A stretch of 39,521 nt of DNA from Candidatus Blautia faecavium (GTDB lineage: Bacteria; Bacillota; Clostridia; Lachnospirales; Lachnospiraceae), in contig DWYZ01000146.1 in NCBI GenBank assembly GCA_019118425.1, positions 1 through 39,521 on the forward strand, given 5' to 3'. How positions within the stretch are numbered: position 1 is the first letter of the stretch; each line of letters starts with the position of its first letter. The notes beneath the pieces were generated by a model. It made no database searches and had not been told where the DNA came from. It saw nothing but the letters and a program-made list of their open reading frames with translations. A program made the position numbers and the translations under genes. Positions 33,076 to 38,898 of the stretch are shown here, piece by piece.

Positions 33076-33867
33076 TCATTCCTGGCTGAGTTTGAAAAGT
33101 TTCTGGTTGAGTTCCTCCAGAACCTGGGCGCGCCGGCCGAAGATGCGCACAGCGAAATCCCCTTCTGAGAGCTCTGTGACGGCTCCTTCCCAATCTTCTC
33201 CTTTTTCAAGGAGTTTCTGGACCTGTCCGGGAAAATCGGGAGATGAGGGACGGGTGAAAAAAAGATTGGACAGATGGGTGTAATCTTCGTACATTCCCAT
33301 TCCCTCCATAGGAAAGAGATCGGGATCATAGCGGCTGTTGTCACGATAGATCAGACGGCCTTTCCTGCGGATTTCCACAAGATTATGATAGAAACGGTAG
33401 GCAAAGCGTTCTCCTCTGGCATACCGGCCGCAGGACAGGATTTCACCCATCTGGAAGCGGGAAGTCTCGTCTGAGAGAGAAATTTCCATACGGCTTTCAA
33501 AAGCAGAATCCTTAAAGGGAATGGTGGGCTGGGGGCAGTAACGAAAAAAAGTCCCCGGCTCTAAATGAACGGCAGTCTTTCGCACCGCGCAGCCTTCGCG
33601 CATCTGGTGAATCTTATCGTAGGATTGTGAAAAGAATTCCATCCTGGCTCCGGAGCGTATATGAAAAGAAAAATCCTGGCAGTCCCCCTCCATGATTCCG
33701 GCGGAGGCGGAAAGGAGCATTACCTGGATGCCGCCCTTTTCCATAGGAAAAGGCTGCATGATCTTGTAGGGCGCAGTAAAAGAGACGTCCCGAAGATAAG
33801 TTTTTTCCTCTTTAAAATCCACATCCAGGGACAGGGTGGAGACTTTGCCAAACTGGTTTTTGCTCAT
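33076..33867 (-). CDS. ureD: Urease accessory protein UreD (UreH)
   Basis: This scaffold protein docks with UreF and UreG on apo-urease for nickel delivery. It has 263 residues, mostly beta-strand, with the UreD-like segments QPFPMEKGGIQVMLLSASAGIMEGD and FFSQSYDKIH. ATG 33867 is preceded by GGAAGGA at the end of ureG; the track's 33894 start lies inside ureG. It is the last gene of the operon. No obvious terminator follows: a TTTTTCCC/GGGAAAAA hairpin lies next to the stop but lacks a U-tract. Confidence 0.88.
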   Translation of the reverse strand: MSKNQFGKVSTLSLDVDFKEEKTYLRDVSFTAPYKIMQPFPMEKGGIQVMLLSASAGIMEGDCQDFSFHIRSGARMEFFSQSYDKIHQMREGCAVRKTAVHLEPGTFFRYCPQPTIPFKDSAFESRMEISLSDETSRFQMGEILSCGRYARGERFAYRFYHNLVEIRRKGRLIYRDNSRYDPDLFPMEGMGMYEDYTHLSNLFFTRPSSPDFPGQVQKLLEKGEDWEGAVTELSEGDFAVRIFGRRAQVLEELNQKLFKLSQE

Positions 33868-33871
33868 AATT

Positions 33872-34480
33872 TTACATTCCTTCCAGAAGCACATTCTTTT
33901 TGATCCACTGGACTACCTGATCCACATTTTCATTCCCGCGGATATTCGTAAAAATAAAGGGGCGTTCTCCCCGCATTTTTTTAGAATCCCGTTCCATGAC
34001 GGCTAGGCTTGCCCCTACGTAGGGAGCCAGGTCGATCTTATTGATGACCAGAAGGTCGGAGCGGGTAATGCCGGGGCCGCCTTTTCTTGGGATTTTATCA
34101 CCCTCAGAGACATCGATGACAAAGATAGTGGCATCCACCAGTTCCGGCGAGAAGGTGGCGGAAAGATTATCCCCGCCGCTTTCGATAAAGAGAAGCTGGA
34201 TATCCGGGAATTTTTCCAGCATTTCGTCTACCGCCTCCAGGTTCATGGAAGCATCCTCCCGGATGGCTGTATGGGGGCATCCTCCGGTCTCCACCCCGAT
34301 AATGCGTTCTCTTGGTATAACGCTGTTTTTGGCAAGGAATTCCGCGTCTTCTTTCGTATAGATATCATTGGTGATGACGCCGATGCTGTAATCCTTCGCC
34401 ATGCACCGGGTCAGGGCTTCGATTAAAGCGGTCTTTCCGGAACCTACCGGTCCGGCCACTCCGATTTTTACATATGACAT
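33872..34480 (-). CDS. ureG: Urease accessory GTPase UreG
   Basis: This SIMIBI GTPase drives nickel insertion into urease, 202 residues. It has P-loop GPVGSGKT near the start, the metal-binding CPH in [26 protein letters not shown], and the guanine-specific NKID. AAGGAG precedes ATG 34480. Four nt separate its stop from the ureD ATG. Length is normal, without the His-rich N-terminus of some UreG, but the neighbouring UreE carries a His tail. Confidence 0.97.
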
Positions 34481-34506
34481 GATCGTATTACTCCTTACAT
34501 AATGTA

Positions 34507-35202
34507 TTAAGACATATAAAGCCTTGAATATAAGTATTCGTGTTCCATACAGCGCAGGTCAAAGGCTGGGGCGGACACACAGAACATTTCCTTTGAGCAG
34601 CTGATGGTCTCTTTTAAGATTTCCTGGAAAAGAGGATACATGTCCCTAAGCAGCCTCTGTCCGTCCGACTGGCTTAAAGGAATGGTCTTTACGCAGTTGG
34701 TGACGGAGGCGGAAGCTTGGGAATAAAGAAAAGCGCTTAATGTATCCATAAGAGGGATCCCGGCGCAGGCGCAAAAGACGCCGTAGGCGCAGGGATGGCT
34801 GGAGGTTTTTCCCTGGCGTAATTTTATATAGGAGGAGAAAAAACCATCCAGATAAGGGGCATGCATGTGAAGCAGAGTTTTTATAAAACGGCTTCCCAGC
34901 TTTTTCGACGCTTCCCGGATTTCTTTAGGGATCCTGGAAGCCTCCAGGATCTCTTCTAAAGCGTCAAGGGAAGACAGATCCTGGCTGGAAGCCGCCTCGT
35001 AGGAGAGGCGGCCTGCCATGAGGTCTGTGTATAGAAAATTATAGCGCAGCCGGTTATGCAGGTATTCCCTGGCTGTGTCATAGTCATGGACCAGCCCCTT
35101 TTGAATGTAAGTTTCCAGGCCGTAGGAGTGAGAATAGCCTCCTATGGGAAAAAGGGAGTCGTTCAGCTGTAAAAGAAGAAACTGATTTTCCAGATTCTGC
35201 AT
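34507..35202 (-). CDS. ureF: Urease accessory protein UreF
   Basis: This helical protein acts as activator/adaptor for UreG in the UreDFG complex, 231 residues. The conserved start [20 protein letters not shown] is clear. ATG 35202 is chosen since AAAGGAG lies 10-12 nt before; the track's 35289 start overlaps ureE in another frame and lacks a site. Nineteen nt separate it from ureE. Confidence 0.94.
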
Positions 35203-35221
35203 TTTATATACCGCTCCTTTT

Positions 35222-35707
35222 TCAATGGTGATGATGGCCGTGTCCGCTGCCTGAGGAAATCCGTCGGGCAAAATCCAGCTTTTGAACAATTTTTTCAGCG
35301 GATACCCCGTGAAGCTTGGAAAGCATCAAAAGCATCGGCTCATTGTATGGGGTGAGGAAGGTATAGCTGTCCTCTCCGTAAAAAAGCGGCGCATGACGGT
35401 TTCCGATCTCATAGCAGACCTTGGGTATCATAAAAGCGTGGTCAGCGGACACTGTGATATGGATTACTTCGCATGGAGGCGTATGTACACTAATGACAAG
35501 ATCATCATCCATATAGATCACATCGCCTTCAAACAGACCTCTGGTAAGGATGGAATCATCCATACGGATTCCTACCTCACGGCCTGTGTCAGTTACTTTT
35601 CTGTGGATTTTTTTAAAAGCCTCGTCCCATTCAATATCCACATATTCCATGGATTTTCCAGATACGTCAAGGGTATCTAAAGTTCCCAGCAGTTTTTCAC
35701 AAATCAT
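35222..35707 (-). CDS. ureE: Urease accessory protein UreE (nickel metallochaperone)
   Basis: UreE binds nickel and hands it to UreG, 161 residues. N-terminal peptide-binding-like domain, C-terminal ferredoxin-like domain with GNRHAPLF (the interface His) and a His-rich tail, GHGHHHH, at the very end. ATG 35707 follows AGGAG with 8-nt spacing; the track's 35725 start has none. Confidence 0.94.
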   Translation of the reverse strand: MICEKLLGTLDTLDVSGKSMEYVDIEWDEAFKKIHRKVTDTGREVGIRMDDSILTRGLFEGDVIYMDDDLVISVHTPPCEVIHITVSADHAFMIPKVCYEIGNRHAPLFYGEDSYTFLTPYNEPMLLMLSKLHGVSAEKIVQKLDFARRISSGSGHGHHHH

Positions 35708-35773
35708 GTTTGTATCTCCTAACAAAATAATTTTCGTTGCCGGTCAGCTTGTTACCGGCAGCGTTTTTTATGC

Positions 35774-36280
35774 TTACCACATGCCGATGAGCATAAGAAG
35801 TCCGGGAATCCATGCGGTCACGATACCCTCAAAGATCTGCAGATAAGGAACAAATTTCCCAAGTTTTTTATGGCAGATATCTTCCACAAAAGAGGTGCCC
35901 CAAAGGATTGCCCATAAATACCAGATGGCTGCCCAGCGCCAGTCTGCAGTGATGCCCAGGGCTTCGCTTCCGGTAAGCCCTTCAAGCGTTCCGAATACCA
36001 GGGCATTTACAGCCACAAAGGTGGAAAACCAGGCAAAAGGGATAGGACTTAATTTCTGCAGTTTTACGAAGGCTACGAAAAGGTAGGTAAAGCCGAACAG
36101 CAGTCCTGTGCCCGCGGCGTAATAATTTCCCATGACCAGGTTTACCCCATTGATGAAAATAGAAAGGCCTCCGGTAAGGATATTCATAACGGCAGCAGAT
36201 TTTCCGTCTACCTTATAAAGCGTACACATGCCGTTGTTGATTAGTACGATTCCTACAAATAATAAACAAACACCTAACAT
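35774..36280 (-). CDS. ureI: AmiS/UreI family urea channel
   Basis: This 168-residue membrane protein has six hydrophobic segments, opening LGVCLLFVGIVLINNGMCTL, as in the UreI/AmiS family that forms urea or short-amide channels in the cytoplasmic membrane. It is shorter than the acid-gated H. pylori channel and close in size to streptococcal UreI, so acid gating cannot be assumed. It lies between ureC and ureE within the operon, which supports urea import for the enzyme. AAGGGGAG precedes the start. Confidence 0.92.
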   Translation of the reverse strand: MLGVCLLFVGIVLINNGMCTLYKVDGKSAAVMNILTGGLSIFINGVNLVMGNYYAAGTGLLFGFTYLFVAFVKLQKLSPIPFAWFSTFVAVNALVFGTLEGLTGSEALGITADWRWAAIWYLWAILWGTSFVEDICHKKLGKFVPYLQIFEGIVTAWIPGLLMLIGMW

Positions 36281-36300
36281 GATCGATCTCCCCTTTTATT

Positions 36301-38019
36301 TTAGAATAAGCTGTAAAGCTGAGTAAGCGGAAGCTTTTTCGCAGGACTGGAAGTGATGTGCTCTCCGTTTACACGAACCTCATAGGTTTCGGGGTTCACT
36401 GTGATCTCCGGGGTCTCGCTGTTGAATTTCATATCTTTCTTTCCTACATTGCGGCAGCCTGATACAGGCACTACCGTTTTTTCAAGATGATATTTTTCCT
36501 TTACCTTCTCGTCCATCGCCGCTTTAGAGACAAAAGTGAGGCAGGAGGCATATTTTGCCTTGCCCTGGGCGGCGAACATAGGCTTATACATAACCGGCTC
36601 GCAGGTAGGGATGGAAGCGTTTGCATCGCCCATTTTAGAGGCGATGATCATGCCGCCTTTGATGATGATATCCGGTTTGATCCCGAAGAACATAGGATTC
36701 CACAGAACCAGATCCGCAAATTTGCCCACTTCCACAGAACCCACATAGGAGGAAACTCCATGGGTGATGGCCGGGTTGATAGTGTATTTGGAAATATAAC
36801 GCTTTACACGGAAATTGTCATTGTCATGTCCCTGATCTTCAGGAAGAACGCCGCGCTCGTCTTTCATTTTGCTCGCTGTCTGCCAGGTCCGGGTGATCAC
36901 CTCGCCTACACGGCCCATTGCCTGGGAATCAGAACTCATCATGGAGAAAATTCCCATATCGTGCAGCACATCCTCCGCGGCAATGGTTTCCGGACGAATC
37001 CGGGAATCCGCAAAGGCCACATCCTCCGGTATTCTTTTATCCAGGTGATGGCATACCATCAGCATGTCCAGATGCTCATCCAGAGTGTTTACGGTGAAGG
37101 GCATGGTGGGATTCGTGGAGGAGGGCAGTACATTAGGAGCTGCCGCCGCACGGATGATATCCGGTGCATGTCCGCCGCCGGCACCCTCTGTGTGGTAGGT
37201 ATGGATTGTCCTTCCGGCGATAGCTGCCAGGGTATCCTCCACGCAGCCGCCTTCATTTAAGGTGTCCGTATGGATCGCCACCTGTACATCGTAATCGTCC
37301 GCCACATTTAAGCAGTGGTCGATAGCGGCAGGAGTGGATCCCCAGTCCTCATGAAGCTTTAAGCCCATGGCTCCGGCGCGGATCTGTTCCTCAAGAGCTT
37401 TTTCATCGGAACAATTTCCCTTTCCTAAAAGACCTATGTTCATGGGGTATTCTTCGCATGCCTTAAGCATCATTTCCATATTCCATGGACCCGGGGTACA
37501 GGTGGTGGCGTTTGTGCCGTCCGTAGGTCCGGTTCCTCCGCCGATCATAGTGGTAACGCCGCTGTAGAGGGCGCATTCCACCTGTTGGGGAGAAATAAAG
37601 TGAATATGGGTGTCCAGGCCGCCGGCTGTAAGGATCAGGCCCTCCCCGGCCAGAGCTTCAGTGGAAGCCCCCACACTCATGCCAGGGGTAACCCCGTCCA
37701 TGATGTCCGGATTTCCTGCTTTTCCGATACCGGCGATCTTTCCGTCCTTGATGCCGATATCTGCTTTATAAATTCCTGTGTAATCCACTACCAGAGCATT
37801 GGTGATGACAAGATCCAGGGCGTCACGGCTTGTGGCCATCACGGACTGGCCCATGCCGTCCCGCAGGGTTTTGCCGCCCCCGAATTTTGATTCGTCTCCA
37901 TAAGTGGTATAGTCTTTTTCTACCTGGATGACCAGGCTGGTATCCGCCAGACGCACCTTGTCGCCTGTGGTGGGACCATACATCATTGCGTATTTGTCAG
38001 CAGATATTTTTATGCTCAT
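36301..38019 (-). CDS. ureC: Urease subunit alpha
   Basis: This is the catalytic subunit, which hydrolyses urea to ammonia and carbamate, 572 residues. Nickel ligands and catalytic residues are all visible: [11 protein letters not shown], the carbamylated Lys in [47 protein letters not shown] with the flap and catalytic His, and SSDSQAMGR with the Asp ligand. ACGGAGG precedes ATG 38019. Full length, no disruption. Confidence 0.98.
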
Positions 38020-38036
38020 GTCTATTCCTCCGTAAT

Positions 38037-38399
38037 TTATATGATAAAGCCTTTTTGCCTTGCCTTTTCCAGGGAAGCCTCCTTCGTAGCAGGGGAAACC
38101 TGGGCACAGGTCAGGTCGTTAAGCCCAAAGACTCTCTTTGTTCCGCCCATAGCGGTGAGAGTGATTTCTTTTTCCTCGCCGGGCTCGAAACGTACCGAGG
38201 TGCCGGAAGGGATATCTAAATGAAAACCGTAAGCTTTTTCCCTGTCAAAGACAAGGCAGCGGTTGACCTCAAAAAAATGATAATGGGAGCCGACCTGGAC
38301 CGGACGGTCCCCTGTATTTACAACCATGAGGGTCACGGTGGGCTTTCCTTCATTGAGAGTGATCTCTCTGTCAAGGGGCATGATTTCTCCAATTTTCAT
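38037..38399 (-). CDS. ureB: Urease subunit beta
   Basis: This is a structural subunit, 120 residues, with [19 protein letters not shown] and [10 protein letters not shown] typical of UreB. GAAAGGA precedes ATG 38399. It is separate from UreA (three-subunit UreABC type, unlike the fused Helicobacter form). Seventeen nt separate it from ureC. Confidence 0.97.
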
Positions 38400-38428: not shown

Positions 38429-38731
38429 TTATTGAATGGGATTGTGTACGGTGACAAGCTTTGTTCCGTCCGGGAAGGTAGCTTCCACCTGGATTTCCGT
38501 GACCATGTCGGCAACTCCTTCCATTACGTCGTCTTTTGAAAGGATCTTGGCGCCAAGCTGCATCAGCTCTGTCACTTCCTTTCCGTCCCGGGCCATCTCC
38601 ATCAGCTCAGAGCTTATGTAGGCGACAGCCTCTGCATAATTCAGCTTCAGGCCTCTTGCCTGTCTTTCTTTGGCAAGGCTGCCTGCTAGATGCAGCAGGA
38701 GCTTTTCCTGTTCCTTTTGTGTTAAACGCAT
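38429..38731 (-). CDS. ureA: Urease subunit gamma
   Basis: This is a small structural subunit, 100 residues, with [17 protein letters not shown] and [21 protein letters not shown], standard for UreA. ATG 38731 follows AAGGAGG; the track's 38770 start would run through the terminator region and is rejected. It is the first gene of ureABC-ureI-ureEFGD, with a long regulated-looking leader. Confidence 0.97.
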
Positions 38732-38767
38732 ATGTAAACCTCCTTGTATTGATGTGCAAGGAAAGCA

Positions 38768-38808
38768 CAAAAAAAGACAAGGCGCCTTAAAAAGAGACGT
38801 CCTTGTCT
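38768..38808 (-). terminator. Intrinsic terminator in the urease leader (attenuator)
   Basis: On the minus strand AGACAAGG (38808-38801) pairs with CCTTGTCT (38782-38775), followed by a run of T to 38769. It lies 37 nt before ureA, downstream of the operon's predicted promoter, and no other minus-strand gene lies upstream for it to serve. Confidence 0.75.
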
Positions 38809-38845
38809 GTTTATGCTTTCTTTATAAGAAAACCTCCGGATTTTC
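38795..38845 (-). promoter_or_regulatory. Tandem hairpins in the urease leader, ANTAR-like antiterminator candidate
   Basis: The proximal hairpin is AGAC-AAGGAC-GTCT (38808-38795) with a six-base loop having A at position 1 and G at 4. It uses the same bases as the 5' arm of the terminator, so the two cannot coexist. About 19 nt upstream, GAAAAT-CCGGAG-GTTTTC (38845-38828) gives a second six-base loop with G at 4 but C, not A, at 1. The layout fits two-hairpin ANTAR targets; the first-loop mismatch is a weakness. Confidence 0.45.
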
Positions 38846-38869
38846 CCTTGGGGCTTTCTGTTTTTGAAA

Positions 38870-38898
38870 ACTTTACCATAAGTAAAAAGAAATGTCAA
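38870..38898 (-). promoter_or_regulatory. Predicted promoter of the urease operon
   Basis: On the minus strand a perfect TTGACA (38898-38893), 17-nt spacer, TAAAGT (38875-38870). The start near 38863 gives a leader of about 130 nt. Confidence 0.75.

Follow-up and report, generated by a model that had tools for sequence, protein, structure and literature searches.

Background

Positive control by ANTAR antitermination is known from AmiR/AmiC of Pseudomonas and from NasT/NasS, which act on dual hexaloop targets and have dedicated ligand-binding partners; AmiR contains a pseudo-receiver governed by its partner protein. NitR of Clostridium is presumably a further case, an ANTAR-type antiterminator tied to glutamine synthetase. 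In PMC4676874, nitR is cited as an antiterminator, alongside an antisense RNA, in ammonia assimilation. The dual motif itself was defined for EutV (Ramesh 2012, PMC3369931). EutV requires the closing AC/GU pairs, induction is lost when P1 is deleted, and binding to a lone stem-loop is weaker; dual motifs also precede genes for PII, ammonium and urea transporters, and glutamine and glutamate synthases. In the structural work (Walshe 2022, PMC8934654), Tyr164 and Met172 of EutV read the hexaloop, R142, K143 and K147 contact the RNA, and only a single hexaloop is in contact with the dimer at any time. Antitermination is still held there to need both, and further analysis of single hexaloops is called for. 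Two hexaloops are the accepted requirement for ANTAR antitermination, and why both are needed was left open. Is there any system that works with one? Since EutV needs both hairpins in vivo, a single-hexaloop form would bear directly on this mechanistic question.

Here we describe the urease operon of Candidatus Blautia faecavium, which lies in a window of 39,521 nucleotides (contig DWYZ01000146.1, the whole stretch analysed). Its leader resembles the targets of EutV/EutW of Enterococcus faecalis in the A1/G4 hexaloop, the AC/GU closing pairs and the overlap with the 5' arm of a terminator, and the genes concerned are likewise nitrogen-related. It differs in having one hexaloop, usually near the RNA 5' end, where EutV/EutW targets have two. 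The likeness to NitR would be the ANTAR-type antiterminator linked to glutamine synthetase and ammonia assimilation; the ANTAR gene here adjoins glnA and the element precedes that operon. The difference is that the RNA target is defined here, and that the element reaches urease, glnN, purF, amtB, gdhA and transporters in Lachnospiraceae.

The urease operon and its leader

The features are collected in Table 1. An earlier note on this DNA had proposed the promoter TTGACA-N17-TAAAGT, a leader of about 130 nt and a terminator 37 nt ahead of ureA, and all three were located. Transcription is predicted to start at about 38863 on the minus strand, the leader measures about 132 nt, and 37 nt separate the end of the terminator from the ureA ATG (38731). 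The names ureB, ureI-type channel, ureE, ureF and ureD are assigned from gene order and sequence.

Table 1. Features of the urease operon and its leader in the window
Feature	Position	Strand	Basis or remark
Sigma-70-type promoter of the urease operon, TTGACA-N17-TAAAGT	38870..38898	-	10/12 matches; TG ahead of -10
10-bp hairpin upstream of the switch	38827..38859	-	-11.6 kcal/mol
Antiterminator hairpin AGAC-AAGGAC-GUCU, proposed ANTAR binding site	38795..38808	-	folding, conservation
Hexaloop AAGGAC, with A1 and G4	38804-38799	-	inside the antiterminator hairpin
Intrinsic terminator, 5' arm contains the hexaloop hairpin	38769..38807	-	-17.5 kcal/mol
Hairpin CCUUG-N10-CAAGG over part of the ureA ribosome-binding site (AAGGAGG)	38742..38761	-	in the minimum-energy structure
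ureA, urease gamma subunit, first gene of the operon	38429..38731	-	NCBIfam TIGR00193, 169 bits
Remaining urease operon, ureB to ureD	33076..38399	-	order and sequence
ureB	38399-38037	-	gene order and sequence
ureC	38019-36301	-	NCBIfam
ureI-type channel	36280-35774	-	gene order and sequence
ureE	about 35725-35222	-	gene order and sequence
ureF	about 35289-34507	-	gene order and sequence
ureG	34480-33872	-	NCBIfam
ureD	33894-33076	-	gene order and sequence

The hairpin AGAC-AAGGAC-GUCU, which the note had placed over the 5' arm of the terminator, was also found there and is conserved in relatives. Its stem and loop are the 5' arm, and the two structures are mutually exclusive. The leader folds with a z of -5.8 relative to shuffles, a value that 0 of 200 shuffles reach. 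When growing prefixes of the leader are folded, the small hairpin appears first, and the terminator displaces it once the 3' arm has been made. A pairing of GAAAGCA with UGUGCUUUC lengthens the terminator beyond its U tract. Upstream of the switch, the 10-bp hairpin perhaps serves in 5'-end protection; downstream, the hairpin over part of the ribosome-binding site suggests a possible second layer of control on ureA. A search of Rfam over the leader, at the gathering threshold and at E up to 10, gave no meaningful match. Within the operon, 5_ureB_sRNA (RF02514) matches at 37572-37863 on the plus strand, antisense to ureC, with 128.9 bits; the probable cause is that the sequence coding for urease is conserved, and not a real antisense RNA.

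Conservation of the hexaloop hairpin

To what extent is the hairpin shared by other urease operons? The ureA loci were drawn from public genomes, 64 of the genus and 397 of the family, and the leaders were scanned for a hexaloop [AG]A-N-G-NN that is closed by C-G on a stem of at least 3 bp and overlaps a terminator. Such an element is found in 46 of 58 ureA leaders, compared with 1.2% of shuffles, and in the family set it precedes 37 of 45. In the eight family loci without it, ureA follows close behind another gene in L121 and L123-L126, L090 lies at a contig end, and L113 and L116 have near-variants of the element, judged by eye. A near-consensus promoter stands ahead of the element in most relatives. 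Of the two hairpins that the alignment with relatives was expected to show, the one at the terminator is kept with its hexaloop and its overlap, but the upstream one is not.

The distinct urease elements, 34 in number, were then aligned. The 12-bp terminator stem covaries in 9 of its 12 pairs. The small antiterminator stem is paired in 99% of cells, and pairing falls to 21-52% when the partner is slid out of register. Changes on both sides of the small stem occur in 7 cells (1.5 +/- 1.0 in shuffles; 0 of 500 shuffles reach 7), the main compensatory exchange being from GAC/GUC to GGC/GCC. Note that the pattern by which most of the elements were collected fixed G4, A2 and the closing pair, and these positions therefore carry no evidential weight; pairing at the other stem positions was not imposed on this set. 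Among 76 distinct elements, on which the scan imposed A2, G4 and the closing pair, the first loop base is A in 67 cases and G in 9, and position 5, which the scan left free, is a purine in 75.

Any terminator in a leader reduces expression, and this one might be a constitutive attenuator, or a terminator protecting the 5' end, that lowers expression without switching. However, the small stem which competes with the terminator covaries independently, and the loop bases, including the purine at position 5, are common to unrelated genes, so that a device of this kind seems highly improbable. The hairpin overlapping the terminator is real and, to judge from its conservation, very probably functional.

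Two loci show further variation. In L120, two terminators with one hexaloop each stand in series ahead of ureA, at distances of about 232 and 133 nt. The same arrangement precedes an amtB-type gene in L290; both are apparent cases of double attenuation. The spirochaete Treponema zioleckii (L011) has a ureA that is 74% identical. A terminator bearing GGC-AACGAG-GCC stands 54 nt upstream of this ureA, which was possibly transferred along with its switch.

One hexaloop or two

The earlier note took AAAAU-CCGGAG-GUUUU (38829..38844, minus strand) for a first six-base-loop hairpin, and with it the leader for a paired ANTAR target. In such a canonical switch the ANTAR protein would be recruited by hairpin 1, with its loop CCGGAG, and would then move to hairpin 2. 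The loop does have G4, the spacing to the antiterminator hairpin is about 20 nt, in agreement with the note, and EutV needs both P1 and P2 in vivo (PMC3369931). However, C1 pairs with G6 and closes a tetraloop, CGGA, with a stability of -0.5 kcal/mol, and the same bases are outcompeted into the 10-bp hairpin of -11.6 kcal/mol; nor do the relatives have a counterpart with A1.

There is a further question, whether the leaders offer a first hairpin any room. The distance from the -10 box to the three-base stem is 7-13 nt in glnA leaders; most other genes have a similar spacing, and in urease leaders it ranges from 9 to 75 nt. The present leader is an outlier in length, as those of most relatives are much shorter. 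With the start taken about 6 nt after the -10 box, 40 of the 64 leaders with a promoter call have no room for a first hairpin, and none of the 24 with room has an A1/G4 first hexaloop. If any base is allowed at position 1, a G4 'hexaloop' is found in 7 of the 24, compared with 3.9 by chance, and several of these seven close by C1-G6 into tetraloops. Likewise, no transcribed A1/G4 hexaloop lies upstream of the 71 elements of urease (46) and glnA (25); the search gave two matches, both overlapping the -10 region. The same search recovers a clear dual element in a distant relative from another family of the class (L237, genome G460), where GCGC-AAUGGA-GCGC and then ACUC-AACGGC-GAGU precede glnA; the dual form is possibly ancestral. 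Small hairpins with loops of 4-5 nt and variable loop sequence were seen between promoter and switch in L088, L089, L091, L096, L097 and L118.

Taken together, a dual-hexaloop switch at the urease operon is very unlikely, even with the example of L237. Of the dual motif as defined in Ramesh 2012, this leader has the A1/G4 hexaloop, the overlap and mutual exclusion with the terminator, and an ANTAR protein in the genome, and it lacks the upstream P1 hexaloop with A1 and G4. Although it falls outside that definition, it very probably acts like an ANTAR switch.

The regulator encoded beside glnA

The earlier note supposed a diffusible ANTAR protein encoded elsewhere, and the genome search which it proposed yielded exactly one ANTAR gene, away from urease and directly downstream of glnA (domain at G000:C220:21120-21257). 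Each of the 45 genomes of the family that carry urease likewise has a single ANTAR gene, which by its coordinates adjoins glnA; since every urease genome tested has the gene, its presence does not discriminate within the family. In a class-wide draw, an ANTAR match is present in 79 of 146 genomes. This type of glnA occurs in 30 of 30 sampled ANTAR-bearing genomes compared with 2 of 20 ANTAR-lacking ones, and the element is absent from the leaders of both glnA genes in the latter.

The ANTAR domain of the regulator scores 55.6 bits, and its assignment from sequence is clear. The receiver-like half reaches 14.3 bits for Response_reg, compared with a cut-off of 30.2. In the 13 extracted proteins, one of them truncated, the phospho-acceptor Asp, the acidic pair and the Lys of the receiver are all replaced, at positions which we judged by eye against CheY. 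Because these phosphorylation residues have been lost, control by a partner protein or a ligand is likelier than control by a kinase. What might the partner be? The constant neighbourhood of glnA suggests glutamine synthetase, which by analogy with AmiC-AmiR would be the obvious candidate. The regulator would then be comparable to AmiR in its pseudo-receiver and in positive control by antitermination, but unlike AmiR/AmiC and NasT/NasS it has no dedicated partner gene adjoining, only glnA, and it would work on a single hexaloop. With EutV it shares the ANTAR domain and the Tyr and Met that read the hexaloop. In an alignment with EutV, with residue numbers counted backward from Tyr164, the positions of Tyr164 and Met172 are retained, and R142, K143 and K147 are replaced by Q, N and N; a receiver without a phosphorylation site and the lack of an adjoining kinase gene set it further apart.

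Other genes behind the element

The element is not confined to urease. The leader of the glnA-ANTAR operon in the same genome consists of TTGACA-N17-TATAAT, 8 nt, GAAC-AAAGGC-GUUC and a terminator, and the element is found in 25 of 30 glnA leaders (this genome included), compared with 0.5% of shuffles. In the same genome it also precedes glnN (GSIII), purF and a PPDK_N-like gene. In relatives, amtB has it in 10 of 10 cases, 8 of them recognised by the scan and 2 by eye. Further genes behind it in relatives are a second type of amtB, gdhA, those for solute-binding proteins of families 3 and 6, for a TauE permease and for a circularly permuted ATP-grasp protein, and again the PPDK_N-like gene. 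The last recurs behind the switch (L132, at G000:C264:9756-9803, L297 and L298), and its product is a candidate member of the nitrogen control. Judged from the sequences, this set of genes probably forms a nitrogen regulon. Among distant ANTAR-bearing Clostridia outside the family, the hexaloop is found in only about 8 of 30 glnA leaders, so the single-hexaloop form is not universal in Clostridia.

Could the hexaloop terminator be read by some other factor, either another RNA-binding protein or a tiny riboswitch for a small molecule? The tie between protein and RNA is one of sequence comparison, and some genomes with an ANTAR gene have no element before glnA. However, with 3-5 bp and 6 nt the element is too small to be an aptamer of the typical kind, and Rfam has no family that matches it at threshold. 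The loop and its closing pairs fit ANTAR recognition, and the element stands on the ANTAR gene's own operon. For these reasons we regard another reader as unlikely.

Proposed control of the urease operon

The earlier proposal that an ANTAR protein controls urease is thus retained in part. The hairpin at the terminator is conserved, an ANTAR gene is present and other nitrogen genes share the element, but the paired architecture does not hold, since the supposed first hairpin closes to a tetraloop, belongs to a competing structure and is absent in relatives, which usually leave it no transcribed room. We consider it probable that urease is controlled by antitermination at a single hexaloop by the glnA-linked pseudo-receiver ANTAR protein. 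RNA polymerase would start near the predicted site and the nascent RNA would fold the small hairpin. If nothing holds this hairpin, the 3' half of the terminator would displace it and transcription would stop ahead of ureA. Under nitrogen shortage, the product of the single ANTAR gene behind glnA would bind the hexaloop, with G4 stacking on the conserved tyrosine as in EutV, and the bound hexaloop would block the terminator so that the urease operon is transcribed. We infer that the protein binds there, that its control is positive and that nitrogen status is the signal. The same protein would control its own glnA operon, together with glnN, purF, amtB, gdhA and amino-acid transporters, through a single hexaloop each.

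Note that the loss of induction on deletion of P1 and the weaker binding of a lone stem-loop by EutV (PMC3369931) suggest that a single hexaloop might not suffice. One explanation is offered by position. The hexaloop usually lies near the 5' end of the RNA, where it would be the first structure the RNA can form, and a recruiting P1 may then be unnecessary. In its widest form the proposal is tentative, and more doubtful than the control of urease alone: the Lachnospiraceae might run a nitrogen regulon, urease included, on one 5'-proximal hexaloop that is both recruitment and antitermination hairpin, with the ANTAR protein gated by glutamine synthetase and not by phosphorylation.

Control by an ANTAR gene linked to glnA is not new in itself, in view of nitR as cited in PMC4676874. 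What appears to be new, within the literature searched, is urease as a target, the breadth of the regulon and the use of a single hexaloop. A search for urease together with ANTAR found nothing relevant, and the available part of a 2025 study of Blautia urease (PMC12001548) describes no regulatory mechanism. A conserved, promoter-proximal regulon with one hexaloop provides natural test cases for the question of why two are needed. What is more, gut Blautia and their relatives may couple urease, and hence the recycling of host urea, to nitrogen status. Search models built on dual hairpins would miss such elements.

Search for further elements

When a covariance model (R1) was built on the whole terminator, it found mostly ordinary terminators in the genome and missed glnA. 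For this reason patterns of promoter and hexaloop were adopted, combined with a filter for hairpin and terminator. The raw pattern shows no enrichment over a reversed control. After filtering in four genomes, 9 of 11 survivors are leaders of genes named above; two survivors, L212 and L217, were discarded as apparent chance matches. Evidential weight therefore lies in the filter and the functions of the genes, and not in the raw pattern. Recurrent matches to TTTAACAAGGGAGCC were rejected, as they are not self-complementary and run into another leader type. A different type of leader, TATAAT-ATATTTAACAAGGGAGCCGGAAGGTGA, recurs in L302 and L304, the latter upstream of a gene resembling rnfC.
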